Below, in pieces: positions 1 through 21,780 of a stretch of 24,293 nt of DNA; the stretch's first letter is position 1, and every line of letters starts with the position of its first letter. The DNA is from a virus: positions 1-24,293 of IMG/VR virus record IMGVR_UViG_3300009420_000088; one strand, 5' to 3'. The translations under genes and the position numbers were made by a program. Under the pieces are notes generated by a model. The model was not told where the DNA came from and did not search any database. It saw only the letters and a list, made by a program, of their open reading frames with translations.

Positions 1-105
1 AGAATTGATCGCAACGAATTATACATTGATGTTGCTATTGAACCTGCAAAAGCCGCAGAATTCATTTATATTCCAATACGTGTTGTAAATACAGGCACTT
101 TATAA
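1..105 (+). CDS. gp18: Tail sheath protein, C-terminal end (partial)
   Basis: Frame 1 is open from the window edge to the TAA at 103-105 and encodes 34 residues ending in IPIRVVNTGTL. The segment AIEPAKAAEFIYIPIRVV resembles the C-terminal strand of contractile tail sheath proteins of T4-like phages, where the last domain contributes to the inter-subunit mesh of the sheath. The position directly before the tail tube gene matches the T4-like order 18-19. Only the tail end is visible, so the call rests on a short stretch plus synteny. A terminator-like hairpin follows at once, which fits the end of a late transcription unit. Confidence 0.72.
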   Translation, partial: RIDRNELYIDVAIEPAKAAEFIYIPIRVVNTGTL

Positions 106-11549: not shown

Positions 11550-11587
11550 TTGACTCTTTGGCATGAAGGTAGTATAATAGTGGTATG
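11550..11587 (+). promoter_or_regulatory. Sigma70-type promoter for the AAA+ ATPase gene
   Basis: TTGACT (11550-11555), a 17-nt spacer and perfect TATAAT (11573-11578) are followed after six bases (AGTGGT) by ATG at 11585, which coincides with the expected transcription start. The same TATAAT-AGTNNT-ATG layout recurs at other early promoters of this window. The site lies right after the uvsY terminator. Confidence 0.85.
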
Positions 11588-11632
11588 ATGAATAAGAAAG
11601 CAAATATTGTTAACAACAAAGCAGAGGTGCAA

Positions 11633-12714: not shown

Positions 12715-13815
12715 ATGGCAAAACGAGACTATTACGAAACTTTGGGTGTTAATAAACAGTCAAACCCTGAAGATATTAAAAAAGCATATCGTAAAGTTGC
12801 CATGAAATACCATCCTGATCGAAACCAAGGCGATAAAACTGCCGAATCCAAATTTAAAGAAGCATCAGAAGCATACGAAATCTTAAGTAACCCTGAAAAA
12901 AGACAACAGTACGATACTATTGGCATGAATATGCATCAACAAGGCACCCAGCCTGGTCAAGGATTTCATCAACATCCAGGAGGATTTAGTTTTAATTTTG
13001 GTAGTGGTGGATTTGAAGGTGCTTTTGGAGACATGTTTGGACAACAAGGACAGTTTGCGGGTCAACAACGTCCTCAACAACGTATTGTAAAGGGTAGAGA
13101 TTTACATATAGGCCTAACTATATCATTTGCAGATGCTATCAAAGGTTGTATAAAAAATGTAACAATATTGCGACCTGATATATGTGCCGACTGTAATGGT
13201 GCTGGAGTTAGGGATGCAATGAAAGCCCCTAGATGCGGAGTATGCCAAGGCACCGGGCACATGGGCGTGTCAGGTGTATTAAATGTAAATCAACAATGCA
13301 ACCGTTGTGGTGGCAGAGGTATAATAATTGATCAAAATACCCAATGTAATACTTGTCATAGTCACGGCAGAGTAAGAAAAGAAAAAACATTAAGTGTAAA
13401 TATTCCTCAAGGTGTAGATACTGGAATCAAAATTAAATTAACAGAGCAGGGTGAAGCAGGCCCTAATATACATAATTCGATATTTGGTGATTTATATGTT
13501 ACTATAGCAGTCAATCAAGATTCTCGTTTTAAACGAGACGGCGTGCATCTTCATTGTTCACAAAAAGTTAAACTTACAGATTTTTTTATGGGTGGAAGTT
13601 ATGATATCGAAACTTTAGATGGTACAATAAATCTTAAAATTCCACAAAATACTCAACCAGGCACAACAATGCGAGTTGTTGGCAAAGGCGTGCCAGCATT
13701 AGGATCTCAACAACACGTTGGCGATTTATTAGTCAAAGTAGAAGTTGAAATTCCAAAAAATTTAAATAGAGAACAAAAAAGATTAATTGAAAAATTACGT
13801 AATCTTGGTATATAA
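12715..13815 (+). CDS. dnaJ: DnaJ (Hsp40) co-chaperone, full type I architecture
   Basis: This 366-residue protein has every part of bacterial DnaJ (376 aa in E. coli). The J domain (1-70) carries HPD at 33-35, the motif that triggers DnaK ATPase. A Gly/Phe/Gln-rich linker covers 77-122. Four zinc-binding repeats start at C157 (CADCNGAG), C174 (CGVCQGTG), C195 (CNRCGGRG) and C211 (CNTCHSHG, slightly degenerate). Two C-terminal substrate-binding domains follow (to about 350). No dnaK or grpE is in the window, so it presumably acts with host DnaK, for example in virion assembly or replication. No clear ribosome site precedes the ATG. Base composition matches the neighbours, so any host acquisition is old. 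Confidence 0.95.
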
Positions 13816-17269: not shown

Positions 17270-17731
17270 TTATGCATTATCAGTGAAATCGTCATCATCA
17301 GTGTTAGCAACATCATCGTCACCTGCTTCTTCCATGCGGACTATGCCGGCGGAAGCCGCTGAACCCATTTGCCATTGCAAAGATGTCCCGTCTAATGCGT
17401 TAGATCCTGTTCCACTTGGTGCAACTAGAGTAACTTTCTTCGCTGAAATTTTTGAAACTGTATATGTTTCTGCATCAGCACCTAATACCATAATCGACAT
17501 TTCGCCTGCACTTAAAGCCGCTGGTAAAACACCAGTTTTTAGTGTACAAGTGTGTTCTGTATCTGCTGTACCTGTTTCAGTACATACAAATCTTTTAGAA
17601 CCTTTTTGTCTAACGATTGTACCTTCTTTAACGGCTGTTCCGTTATGGAAGGAAACTTTGATTTCGTTTGCACCAGCAGTTGCGCCTGCGACCGCTGTTG
17701 TAAACATTTTTTTATTTAATGGTCTTCCCAT
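17270..17731 (-). CDS. Probable late virion structural protein (MGRPLNKK family)
   Basis: The start is set at 17731 (153 aa) because AGGAG lies 7 nt upstream on the minus strand; the longer frame from 17773 would run through the leader hairpins. The opening MGRPLNKKMF is like that of small structural proteins in marine T4-like phages. The body is strand-rich, with Ala/Gly/Thr-rich segments (TAVAGATAGANEIKVSFHN) and an acidic end (DDDVANTDDDDFTDNA). A late promoter motif (CATAAATA) lies upstream on the same strand. Inference: a decoration or other surface virion protein. It is one of two minus-strand genes in the window. Confidence 0.68.
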   Translation of the reverse strand: MGRPLNKKMFTTAVAGATAGANEIKVSFHNGTAVKEGTIVRQKGSKRFVCTETGTADTEHTCTLKTGVLPAALSAGEMSIMVLGADAETYTVSKISAKKVTLVAPSGTGSNALDGTSLQWQMGSAASAGIVRMEEAGDDDVANTDDDDFTDNA

Positions 17732-17758
17732 TTGTTTTCTCCTAGTTAGAAGTCCGAT

Positions 17759-17810
17759 GTGGGTTCTACCCACTACGGGGTTGGTACCCCATAAGTCCTA
17801 TAAAAATAGG
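17759..17810 (-). promoter_or_regulatory. Three tandem hairpins in the leader of the minus-strand structural gene
   Basis: Three perfect stems lie side by side: GTGGGT/ACCCAC with a 3-nt loop (17759-17773), GGGGT/ACCCC with a 4-nt loop (17777-17790), and CCTAT/ATAGG with an AAAA loop (17797-17810). They fall between the late promoter and the AGGAG site, so they would form in the 5' leader of the minus-strand mRNA. They may stabilise the message or block read-through from other units. It is not a tRNA: no acceptor stem and no 7-nt anticodon loop. Confidence 0.6.
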
Positions 17811-17813
17811 TAC

Positions 17814-17842
17814 TTGAACTATTCAAATATTTATGCTATAAT
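17814..17842 (+). promoter_or_regulatory. Sigma70-type promoter for the gp62-like gene
   Basis: TTGAAC (17814-17819), a 17-nt spacer and perfect TATAAT (17837-17842) precede an ATG at 17848 by five bases (ACAGT). Transcription should start at or within two bases of that ATG, so the message would be leaderless. The spacer contains the late promoter core of the opposite strand. Confidence 0.82.
17828..17835 (-). promoter_or_regulatory. Late promoter core on the minus strand, overlapping the sigma70 site
   Basis: On the minus strand this reads CATAAATA, seven of eight bases of TATAAATA and identical in its core to the site at 6656. It is correctly placed, about 97 nt upstream of the minus-strand structural gene and ahead of the hairpin leader. 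It lies entirely within the spacer of the plus-strand early promoter. Confidence 0.55.
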
Positions 17843-17847
17843 ACAGT

Positions 17848-18318
17848 ATGAGTAAGAAATCTGTACCAATTAAACAACTTTTATCGGCAATCGATCATCG
17901 CAAGAAAGATTTCTACGATAAAATTGACAATGACACGTATAAAATAGAACCATGGCTTGCAATGCGATGGGCAAGTAGTGTAAGTAATAAAGTTTTTAAT
18001 ATAGTTGCACACCATTTATTATTAACAAATGATTTTGTAAATGTACATTTTAACGTATTAAGTAAACATCCAAAATTACAATGGTTATTATTAACTATTA
18101 CTGGTGCAAAAACAGGTAGATATCATCAGTGGATACCACCTGGTAAACGTGGAAAGAAAAATAAACTAAAGGAATTTGTATATATTAATAATCCAACTTG
18201 GAATGAAGAAGAATTAGAGTTGTTTTTTACAGTTAATACAAAAAAAGAGCTAGAAGAATACGTTGGCAGTTTTGGATTAACACCTAAGCAAACCAAGGAG
18301 TTGTTTGGAAAGTCTTAA
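17848..18318 (+). CDS. Possible clamp-loader small subunit (gp62-like)
   Basis: The 156-residue basic protein has a helical pattern, with EPWLAMRWASSVSNKVFNIV (34-53), a region with HFNVLSKHPKLQWLLLTITG, then YHQWIPPGKRGKKNKLKEF. In gp62 of T4 relatives, a comparable run (residues of the LQ-LL type followed by a basic KRF-KW segment) is found, and T4 gp62 is 187 aa. gp62 pairs with gp44 to load the sliding clamp. gp44 and gp45 are not in this window. The early-type promoter and the replication neighbours agree with this, but sequence support is thin; an unknown replication-linked protein is the alternative. Confidence 0.45.
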   Translation: MSKKSVPIKQLLSAIDHRKKDFYDKIDNDTYKIEPWLAMRWASSVSNKVFNIVAHHLLLTNDFVNVHFNVLSKHPKLQWLLLTITGAKTGRYHQWIPPGKRGKKNKLKEFVYINNPTWNEEELELFFTVNTKKELEEYVGSFGLTPKQTKELFGKS

Positions 18319-19613: not shown

Positions 19614-19960
19614 ATCTGGCGTCTTTTAATTCTTTTTTCGTTTATTGAATTTAAACTAACTGTTGGGCCTTTAGACACTTTTGCATTTTTGCTATTAAAT
19701 GTCTTAAGAGCGTAATGAAATTTATGAAATCTGTTACCTAGTACTAAATTAATTGGAATGATGCGGTTCGATTCCCACCACCATTCATCTGCTAAACTTA
19801 AAAACTCTTGTTTGTCCATTTCGTCTACTTTTTCATACACATAAACACTTGTAACTGCCTGTGTCTGATTTTGTATAATTCCAACTATTTCTCCGTTGGT
19901 ACCAAGTTCAAGCACACTCAAAAACGGAAATTTCTCTAAAAAATCTTCTTCTACATCCAT
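19589..19960 (-). CDS. Conserved unknown minus-strand protein, 123 residues
   Basis: This minus-strand gene fills an otherwise empty gap and ends with a 25-nt tail-to-tail overlap with the DnaE-like gene. The protein has a patterned strand-rich core: FLSVLELGTNGEIVGIIQNQ (13-32), TSVYVYEKV, SLADEWWWESNRIIPINLVL (55-74), FHYALKTFNSK, and a basic end KRRQIQLCAK. The WWWESNR-IPIN region resembles a small conserved protein seen in cyanophage-like myoviruses. AGGAT precedes the ATG. No late promoter motif is visible upstream on the minus strand. Function unknown. Confidence 0.72.
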   Translation of the reverse strand: MDVEEDFLEKFPFLSVLELGTNGEIVGIIQNQTQAVTSVYVYEKVDEMDKQEFLSLADEWWWESNRIIPINLVLGNRFHKFHYALKTFNSKNAKVSKGPTVSLNSINEKRIKRRQIQLCAKNF

Positions 19961-19969
19961 ATAAAATCC

Positions 19970-19983
19970 TATAAATACTAATT
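19970..19983 (+). promoter_or_regulatory. Late promoter TATAAATACTAATT, best match in the window
   Basis: The eight-base core is perfect and the following ACTA agrees with the T4 late consensus and with the sites at 166 and 6656. It lies 18 nt before the start of a structural gene, in the 41-nt gap between divergent genes. Confidence 0.78.
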
Positions 19984-20001
19984 ATAATAAGGTCGACAGA
20001 T

Positions 20002-20772
20002 ATGAAACTTCACAAGTATACAGTTAATTTAAGTGCATCAACTGGCAAGAAGCGTACATCACGTTCTGCCAAAACTAGTCACACCCCAATAAGGTTTTTT
20101 AAAGGGGCAGAGAATAATATTACTTTATCTATTGCCGATGACAAAAATAAAGATATTAGCATGTCTAGTTATGATATTCTTGGAACATTAATTGACCCGT
20201 CTTCAACTGTAATATTTAGTAAGGCCTGCAGGGCTGTTTCAGAAGATTTTACAAAATACGAATTTTCATTACAAGCAGACAAATTACTTGGTGTAGAAGC
20301 AGGATTTTACAAATTAAGTTTCAGTTATGCTGATGATATAAATCAATTACCTTTATACGTTGATAATGCCTTAAACAATACAGTTAGTGTAGAAGTTGTT
20401 AAAGACAATTATACTTGGTTTGAAGAATCAACTGTAATAGAAGCATTTAATGTTATAGACAACATCAATGATATTAGCGAAACCCCAAGTTATAAAGGCG
20501 ACCAACATTACGAAGATACAAACGGACTTCACACTTTCGCATTTTATGCCACAGGCTTTACTGGTAAAGTATGGGCTTATGGTACATTAGATGCTGACCC
20601 AAACGACAATGCACATTGGTTTCCATTAAAGTTAGATACTATAGAAGATTACAATACTATGACGGCAAAGACCGGTATCGAACCTTTCAATGTTACCTGC
20701 AACTTAGCATTTATCAAATTTAAAGTAGATACAGACTCAGGAACGATTGACAAAATACTCTATAGGCGCTAG
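20002..20772 (+). CDS. Late virion structural protein, 256 residues
   Basis: The protein has a Lys/Arg/Ser/Thr-rich N-terminus (1-26), then an Ig-like strand pattern (30-135) with PIRFFKGAENNITLSIADD, SYDILGTLIDPSSTVIFS and GFYKLSFSYADD, similar in style to the BppU-type N-terminal domain of phage baseplate or fibre adaptors. The second half (170-256) is a smaller strand-rich domain with FAFYATGFTGKVWAYGTLD. A strong late promoter lies just upstream and AAGG precedes the ATG. Inference: baseplate or tail-fibre associated structural protein. The promoter of the downstream primase lies inside its 3' end. Confidence 0.6.
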   Translation: MKLHKYTVNLSASTGKKRTSRSAKTSHTPIRFFKGAENNITLSIADDKNKDISMSSYDILGTLIDPSSTVIFSKACRAVSEDFTKYEFSLQADKLLGVEAGFYKLSFSYADDINQLPLYVDNALNNTVSVEVVKDNYTWFEESTVIEAFNVIDNINDISETPSYKGDQHYEDTNGLHTFAFYATGFTGKVWAYGTLDADPNDNAHWFPLKLDTIEDYNTMTAKTGIEPFNVTCNLAFIKFKVDTDSGTIDKILYRR

Positions 20773-20775
20773 AAT
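20747..20775 (+). promoter_or_regulatory. Sigma70-type promoter for primase
   Basis: A perfect TTGACA (20747-20752), a 17-nt spacer and TAGAAT (20770-20775) are followed after six bases (AGTAGT) by the primase ATG. The -35 and most of the spacer lie within the 3' end of the late structural gene. It would give a leaderless primase message. Confidence 0.72.
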
Positions 20776-20781
20776 AGTAGT

Positions 20782-21780
20782 ATGACGATTGTCCAGGAAA
20801 AAGTACGTTCTTTTATTCCGTTCAAAGCAAAGAGTAGCCCAGGTGGTTGGATATCACATAATTGTCCTATGTGTATGTTATTAGGCCATAGACGGGCAGA
20901 CACCAAGGGCAGAGGCGGTTGGCGGTTTAATCAAGACGGCGCAATAGGGTATAATTGCTTTAATTGCGGTTTTAAAACAGTATACAAATCTGGTAAGTTA
21001 AATCCAAAATTAGTTAAATTATTAAAAGCATTAGGTGCTCAGAAACAAGAAATAGACGAGATACAATTAATTGCTATTAGGACATCGGATCTTGTAAAAA
21101 CTGCATGGCAAGAAAAAACAACAACTGTTGATGAATGGAAAGAAGTTATATTACCAGGTAGTGCCAAAAAAATAAATGAATGTGATGCAACTGAGAATTT
21201 TGTTGAAGCAGTAAAATACATTGCAGACAGAAAACTTTTAGATTTAGCAGATTGGTATTTTAGCGATCATAAAATATATGATATGCAACATAGGATTATC
21301 TTGCCTTATAAGTACGGCAATAAAATAGTTGGCTATACTGCAAGGCATATTCAATCATTAAACAAGGGCAGAGTTTCAAGTAGGTACATAACTCAGCAAC
21401 CACGAGACTATGTTTATAATTTAGATGCACAAAAAGACAGTCGTAAGTATGTTATTGTTACAGAAGGCCCGTTTGATGCATTAAGTGTTGATGGTGTTAG
21501 TGTTGGCTCTAATAGAATAAGCAGAGGTCAAGTTAACATTATAAACAGTTTTGGTAAAGCAGTAATAGTATTACCTGACTTTGATCATGCTGGTAAGGAT
21601 TTTGCAAGGCAGGCTATTAAGCATAAATGGTCAGTGAGCTTCCCGCAATGGAAGAAAAAATACAAAGATCCAAATCAGGCAATGGTTAAGTTAAGTAGAT
21701 TGGATATATTAAAAAGTGTTTTAGAAGGTAGGGTAACAAATCCTACTAAAATTAAAGTATTACTATCACAGTGGAAATAA
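20782..21780 (+). CDS. gp61: DNA primase gp61
   Basis: The 332-residue protein makes RNA primers for lagging-strand synthesis in complex with helicase gp41. The N-terminal zinc-binding part has CPMC (28-31) and CFNC (59-62) with GGWRFNQDGAIGYNC between. The TOPRIM catalytic core has VIVTEGPFDALSV (224-236) with E228, then IVLPDFDHAGKDFA (262-275) with D266 and D268. RIILPYKYGNKIVGYTAR (171-188) is the usual strand pair before it. T4 gp61 is 342 aa. The ATG lies at the predicted transcription start and has no Shine-Dalgarno. The helicase gene follows 3 nt later. Confidence 0.94.
   Translation: MTIVQEKVRSFIPFKAKSSPGGWISHNCPMCMLLGHRRADTKGRGGWRFNQDGAIGYNCFNCGFKTVYKSGKLNPKLVKLLKALGAQKQEIDEIQLIAIRTSDLVKTAWQEKTTTVDEWKEVILPGSAKKINECDATENFVEAVKYIADRKLLDLADWYFSDHKIYDMQHRIILPYKYGNKIVGYTARHIQSLNKGRVSSRYITQQPRDYVYNLDAQKDSRKYVIVTEGPFDALSVDGVSVGSNRISRGQVNIINSFGKAVIVLPDFDHAGKDFARQAIKHKWSVSFPQWKKKYKDPNQAMVKLSRLDILKSVLEGRVTNPTKIKVLLSQWK

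Follow-up and report, generated by a model that had tools for sequence, protein, structure and literature searches.

Overlapping early and late promoters have been described in the T4-related phages RB49 and S-PM2, where both serve the same gene and result in middle-type expression (PMC2984593). In the cyanomyovirus S-PM2 the late promoter is NATAAATA (PMC2984593), and a paper on the jumbo phage AR9 speaks of leaderless transcripts (PMC5312081). For the freshwater-2 RNA family (RF02980), to which the leader of one of the genes considered below belongs, a limited literature search returned no paper. The window analyzed here, i.e., the whole 24,293-base virus record IMGVR_UViG_3300009420_000088, comes from a virus related to jumbo T4-like phages, such as Pseudomonas phages Ettore and PA5oct (Wroclawvirus), Vibrio phage 2.275.O and Agrobacterium phage Atu_ph07; at the DNA level the window displayed no similarity to named phages.

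The gene order of the window (uvsW-type helicase, phrog_11279, the gp62-like gene of phrog_11758, a 246-aa gene, a DNA polymerase piece, a small reversed gene, a virion gene, primase and helicase) is that of the jumbo phages Ettore (Arenbergviridae), 2.275.O and Atu_ph07, which share with it the arrangement around uvsW, phrog_11279, the gp62-like gene, the DNA polymerase piece and the small reversed gene. Unlike these phages, the window contains an additional reversed gene (17731-17270) between phrog_11279 and the gp62-like gene. The latter two are directly adjacent in Ettore and 2.275.O and 268 bases apart in Atu_ph07; no reversed gene is annotated between them in any of the three phages, and freshwater-2 was not found there. 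A full DnaJ-type chaperone gene with J, zinc-finger and C-terminal domains is present in the replication region of the window (12715-13815), and a second divergent junction, between the small reversed gene and the virion gene, is located at 19960-20002 and carries TATAAATA on the plus strand. Among the contigs L008, L149, L150, L151, L153 and L155, several have back-to-back late-type cores on both strands at this second junction.

Homologues of the gp62-like gene (17848..18318, plus strand, 156 aa, predicted leaderless) occupy the corresponding position in the gene order of jumbo T4-related phages. The designation of this gene as gp62, introduced by the earlier note, is unproven, as phrog_11758 is a PHROG without assigned function and no solved relative was found: a profile built of nine homologues matched no PDB chain up to E = 1. 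Since the alignment of these nine sequences was too diverse for the contig search, it was replaced there by single-protein searches. The reversed gene (17270..17731, minus strand, 153 aa) actually starts at 17731 with MGRPLNKK.... The same note had called its product structural, a label which also lacks proof: the protein gave no PHROG match, Pfam returned only a baseplate-J match below the cut-off, and the beta-rich structure model (mean pLDDT 77.6) found no significant match in the PDB, its fold matches being phage proteins, almost all of them without assigned function. A search of named phages with this protein gave no match; its homologues were found behind freshwater-2 leaders in many contigs. 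In Sinorhizobium phage Phosso a reversed MGRPLKK gene is located nearby, and freshwater-2 was not detected in this phage.

Directly upstream of the gp62-like gene, a sigma70-type early promoter with 10/12 consensus positions, TTGAAC-17-TATAAT, occupies positions 17814..17842 of the plus strand. Its -35 hexamer lies at 17814-17819 and its -10 hexamer at 17837-17842; the 17-bp spacer is within the 16-18 bp range of sigma70-type promoters, and a TG one base 5' of the -10 hexamer makes the latter an extended one. The T4-type late promoter core CATAAATA is found on the minus strand at 17828..17835, wholly within the early spacer, so that the nesting reported in the earlier note was confirmed to the exact coordinate. 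By count, neither motif exceeds chance: the window contains 54 sigma70-like sites vs 63 ± 7.5 in shuffled sequences, 2 occurrences of CATAAATA vs 3.2 expected, and 3 of TATAAATA vs 4.2 expected. Position and relatives must therefore decide whether the motifs are real, and judged in this way both promoters appear credible, each standing above chance by position though not by count; the proposal of an early plus-strand and a late minus-strand promoter on one site is thus supported. A perfect inverted repeat, TTGAA-CTA-TTCAA (17814..17826), can also be read from the sequence; it overlaps the early -35 hexamer, adjoins the predicted late start, and possibly represents an operator or a short 5' hairpin of the late mRNA.

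The late core precedes a freshwater-2 RNA leader (17729..17811, minus strand), which consists of three hairpins, includes the SD and the start codon of the late gene, and matches the covariance model of RF02980 above gathering (71.1 bits vs the gathering score of 49.9), with a fold z-score of -2.9. Freshwater-2 loci were collected from viral contigs by a promoter-blind pattern and retained only when an SD and ATGG followed downstream. Among the matches listed, 55 of 60 loci carry NTAAATA within 80 nt upstream, vs 31 of 1200 control windows (2.6%) represented by stretches further upstream, and the late core of the window is located at a similar offset from the leader, i.e., its position just upstream of the late gene is kept in the relatives. 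All four cultured relatives and four large freshwater-2 contigs carry genes of gp55-type late sigma factors (phrog_234 and phrog_12791); none was found in the window itself, which is a 24-kb fragment. Because of the upstream cores in these 55 loci, the agreement of CATAAATA with the NATAAATA core of S-PM2, and the late-sigma genes of the relatives, the predicted late promoter is very likely real. In a search of whole records freshwater-2 was detected in six of them, in one copy each and always somewhat below the cut-off. The gene behind freshwater-2 usually begins with MGRP (loci among L009-L147). In two phages manA RNAs are located upstream of the freshwater-2 element (L019, 5660-5873; L024, 2601-2808), and in a third one a glutamine riboswitch is found there (L016, 3146-3192).

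As to the early promoter, its -10 hexamer ends 5 nt before the gp62-like ATG at 17848 and no SD was found upstream of this start; therefore the gp62-like mRNA should be leaderless, with transcription beginning no later than the start codon, a placement also predicted for other early genes of the clade. Strong sigma70-type promoters with the -10 hexamer exactly 6 nt before the ATG were also revealed at the AAA-domain gene (11550-11578, region 11550-11590) and at the primase gene (20747-20775, region 20747-20790) of the window. In a set of 19 contigs and records from this clade, 12 promoters with at least 10/12 consensus positions end 5-6 nt ahead of a long ORF's ATG (about 8 of these 12 being independent, as several contigs are redundant), vs about 15 for the remaining gaps between -40 and +60 taken together. 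In the 12 viral records behind the fetched loci, the pattern TTGAMW-16..18-TATAAT-4..7-ATG gave 17 matches vs 1 for the reversed pattern. The gap of the primase promoter is retained in L161, L163, L167/L169 and L008 at 38-47% protein identity; part of its -35 hexamer belongs to the end of the preceding coding sequence, and constraint on the encoded protein may account for some of this conservation. These data support leaderless early promoters in the clade in general and, by its position, the putative gp62-like one as well; the latter is conserved, without any change, only in the near-identical contigs L002-L006.

The overlap itself is retained base-for-base in the same L002-L006, five contigs near-identical to the window in this region, and is common to them only. 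Most other relatives have no reversed late gene at this place. The same divergent gene pair is present in L153, L155 and L158, whose gp62-like proteins are 28-32% identical to that of the window and whose freshwater-2 leaders, at 41-47 bits, fall slightly short of the gathering score; in L153 and L158 the flanking genes, too, come in the order uvsW - phrog_11279 - reversed late gene - gp62-like. Counted from the ATG of the gp62-like gene, the late core (TATTTA on the plus strand) is situated at -101 to -95 in L153, -89 to -83 in L155 and -84 to -78 in L158, and the best early match at -58 to -26, -50 to -21 and -56 to -27, respectively, leaving the core 20-40 nt clear of the early match. As these early matches are weak, the separation is well established with regard to the late core but only approximate with regard to the early site; the true early start sites in these contigs are thus uncertain, and transcription of the genes could begin at another place. 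An early-type promoter with at least 9/12 consensus positions covers the late core on the opposite strand in 4 of 52 freshwater-2 loci, with no clear enrichment over the 3.8% of control positions; at 10/12 the overlap occurs in 2 of the 52 loci vs 0.8% of controls, both times with a divergent repeat-protein gene. L033, L046, L068 and L111, in which TTGACA lies over the late core next to a divergent repeat-protein gene, were considered as an independent nested pair and rejected, their -10 matches being poor or misplaced with respect to the start codon; part of their -35 match stems from the common late-promoter flank TACTTGTCAA.

The leader start (17811) and the ATG (17848) are separated by only 36 bases, the last 34 of which must hold the early site when the promoter is a leaderless one. 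When the 55 observed core-to-leader distances were applied to this locus, 98% of them produced an overlap with the early promoter and 82% a complete nesting. As 98% of the empirical late-core offsets overlap here, the overlap is explained without selection for nesting, and, considering that relatives with the same genes keep the two signals apart, it is most likely a by-product of compaction, i.e., of tight packing, rather than a conserved switch. Probably, then, the locus is a compacted divergent region in which real early and late promoters share 36 bp and the order of their use is set by the change of sigma factor. The earlier note had instead proposed a mutually exclusive early-to-late switch, and had named separate sites in relatives as evidence against it. 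A selected switch of this kind, where late complexes would shut off the early gene and the early polymerase would delay the late one, would agree with the complete nesting in the window and L002-L006, with the dyad TTGAA-CTA-TTCAA on the shared site and with the length of 29 bp, too short for two polymerases at once; we nevertheless consider it unlikely, since in distant contigs with the same divergent pair the late core does not reach the best early match, such overlaps are not clearly enriched in the 52 freshwater-2 loci, and geometry alone predicts the overlap. With the sites lying apart in L153, L155 and L158, nesting is not kept among these distant relatives having this gene pair, and the claim of a selected switch is not supported.

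The early promoter could alternatively be dismissed as a chance match of TTGAAC-17-TATAAT in AT-rich DNA, leaving the late promoter alone functional and the gp62-like gene read from upstream transcripts. This would be in line with sigma70-like sites being no commoner than in shuffled sequences, and with the gp62-like gene of L161-L169 and Ettore, which sits in an operon without its own promoter; yet it leaves aside the extended -10 hexamer, the 5-nt gap to the ATG, common to other early genes of the clade, and the absence of an SD at the gp62-like start, consistent with a leaderless mRNA, and appears rather improbable. Even less credence can be given to the opposite suggestion, namely that CATAAATA on the minus strand is no promoter but an AT-rich word present by chance: although its count in the window is at chance level, 55 of the 60 loci listed have an NTAAATA core at about this distance from their freshwater-2 leader, which makes the suggestion highly improbable.

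Under the preferred reading of a compacted region, a late module composed of the NATAAATA late promoter, the freshwater-2 leader and its gene would sit reversed within the replication cluster, and the gp62-like gene would be driven by its own host-sigma70 early promoter, giving a leaderless mRNA from a -10 hexamer 5 nt before the ATG. With a leaderless start on one side and a late leader of 83 nt on the other, only 36 bp would remain between leader and ATG, which places the late core within the spacer of the early promoter. From the motifs, their geometry, the comparative support for both promoters and the gp55-type genes of the relatives we infer start sites and timing as follows: early, the host RNA polymerase with sigma70 would transcribe rightwards, covering the gp62-like gene and those that follow it; late, by analogy with T4, polymerase with a gp55-type sigma factor would transcribe leftwards, starting at about 17822 and passing freshwater-2 before it enters the reversed gene. 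RNA polymerase footprints do not allow two polymerases to sit on 29 bp at once, and local mutual exclusion on this site is physically likely; with the order of events set by the change of sigma factor, the overlap would add at most local competition.

A more tentative proposal, which we regard as possible rather than probable, is that in these jumbo T4-related phages some early replication mRNAs are leaderless and that one late gene is read with a freshwater-2 leader from a T4-type late promoter. If this were true, the early-to-late change would also be a change in the mode of translation start, and both modes would meet on one 36-bp site at this locus. Of more use than the nested pair itself are two results to which it led: leaderless early mRNAs with a fixed promoter-to-ATG distance represent a candidate class in jumbo T4-related phages, and the freshwater-2 RNA gains a genomic context, as it appears to open a late phage mRNA that begins at a T4-type late promoter immediately upstream.

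Compared with the described systems, the locus resembles AR9 in its predicted leaderless early mRNAs in a jumbo phage and differs from it in the promoters employed, AR9 having its own multisubunit RNA polymerases (PMC5312081) and the window host sigma70-type promoters. With respect to RF02980, the leader of the late gene shows no difference from the family as an RNA; the present data add to it a T4-type late promoter, located immediately before the leader in 55 of the 60 loci listed. With RB49 and S-PM2 the locus shares an early sigma70-type and a T4-type late promoter within one intergenic region of a T4-related phage. In those phages both promoters serve the same gene, whereas in the window they face opposite ways and serve different genes; an overlap of the RB49 type, with both promoters on the same strand, is thus ruled out by the opposite strands observed.
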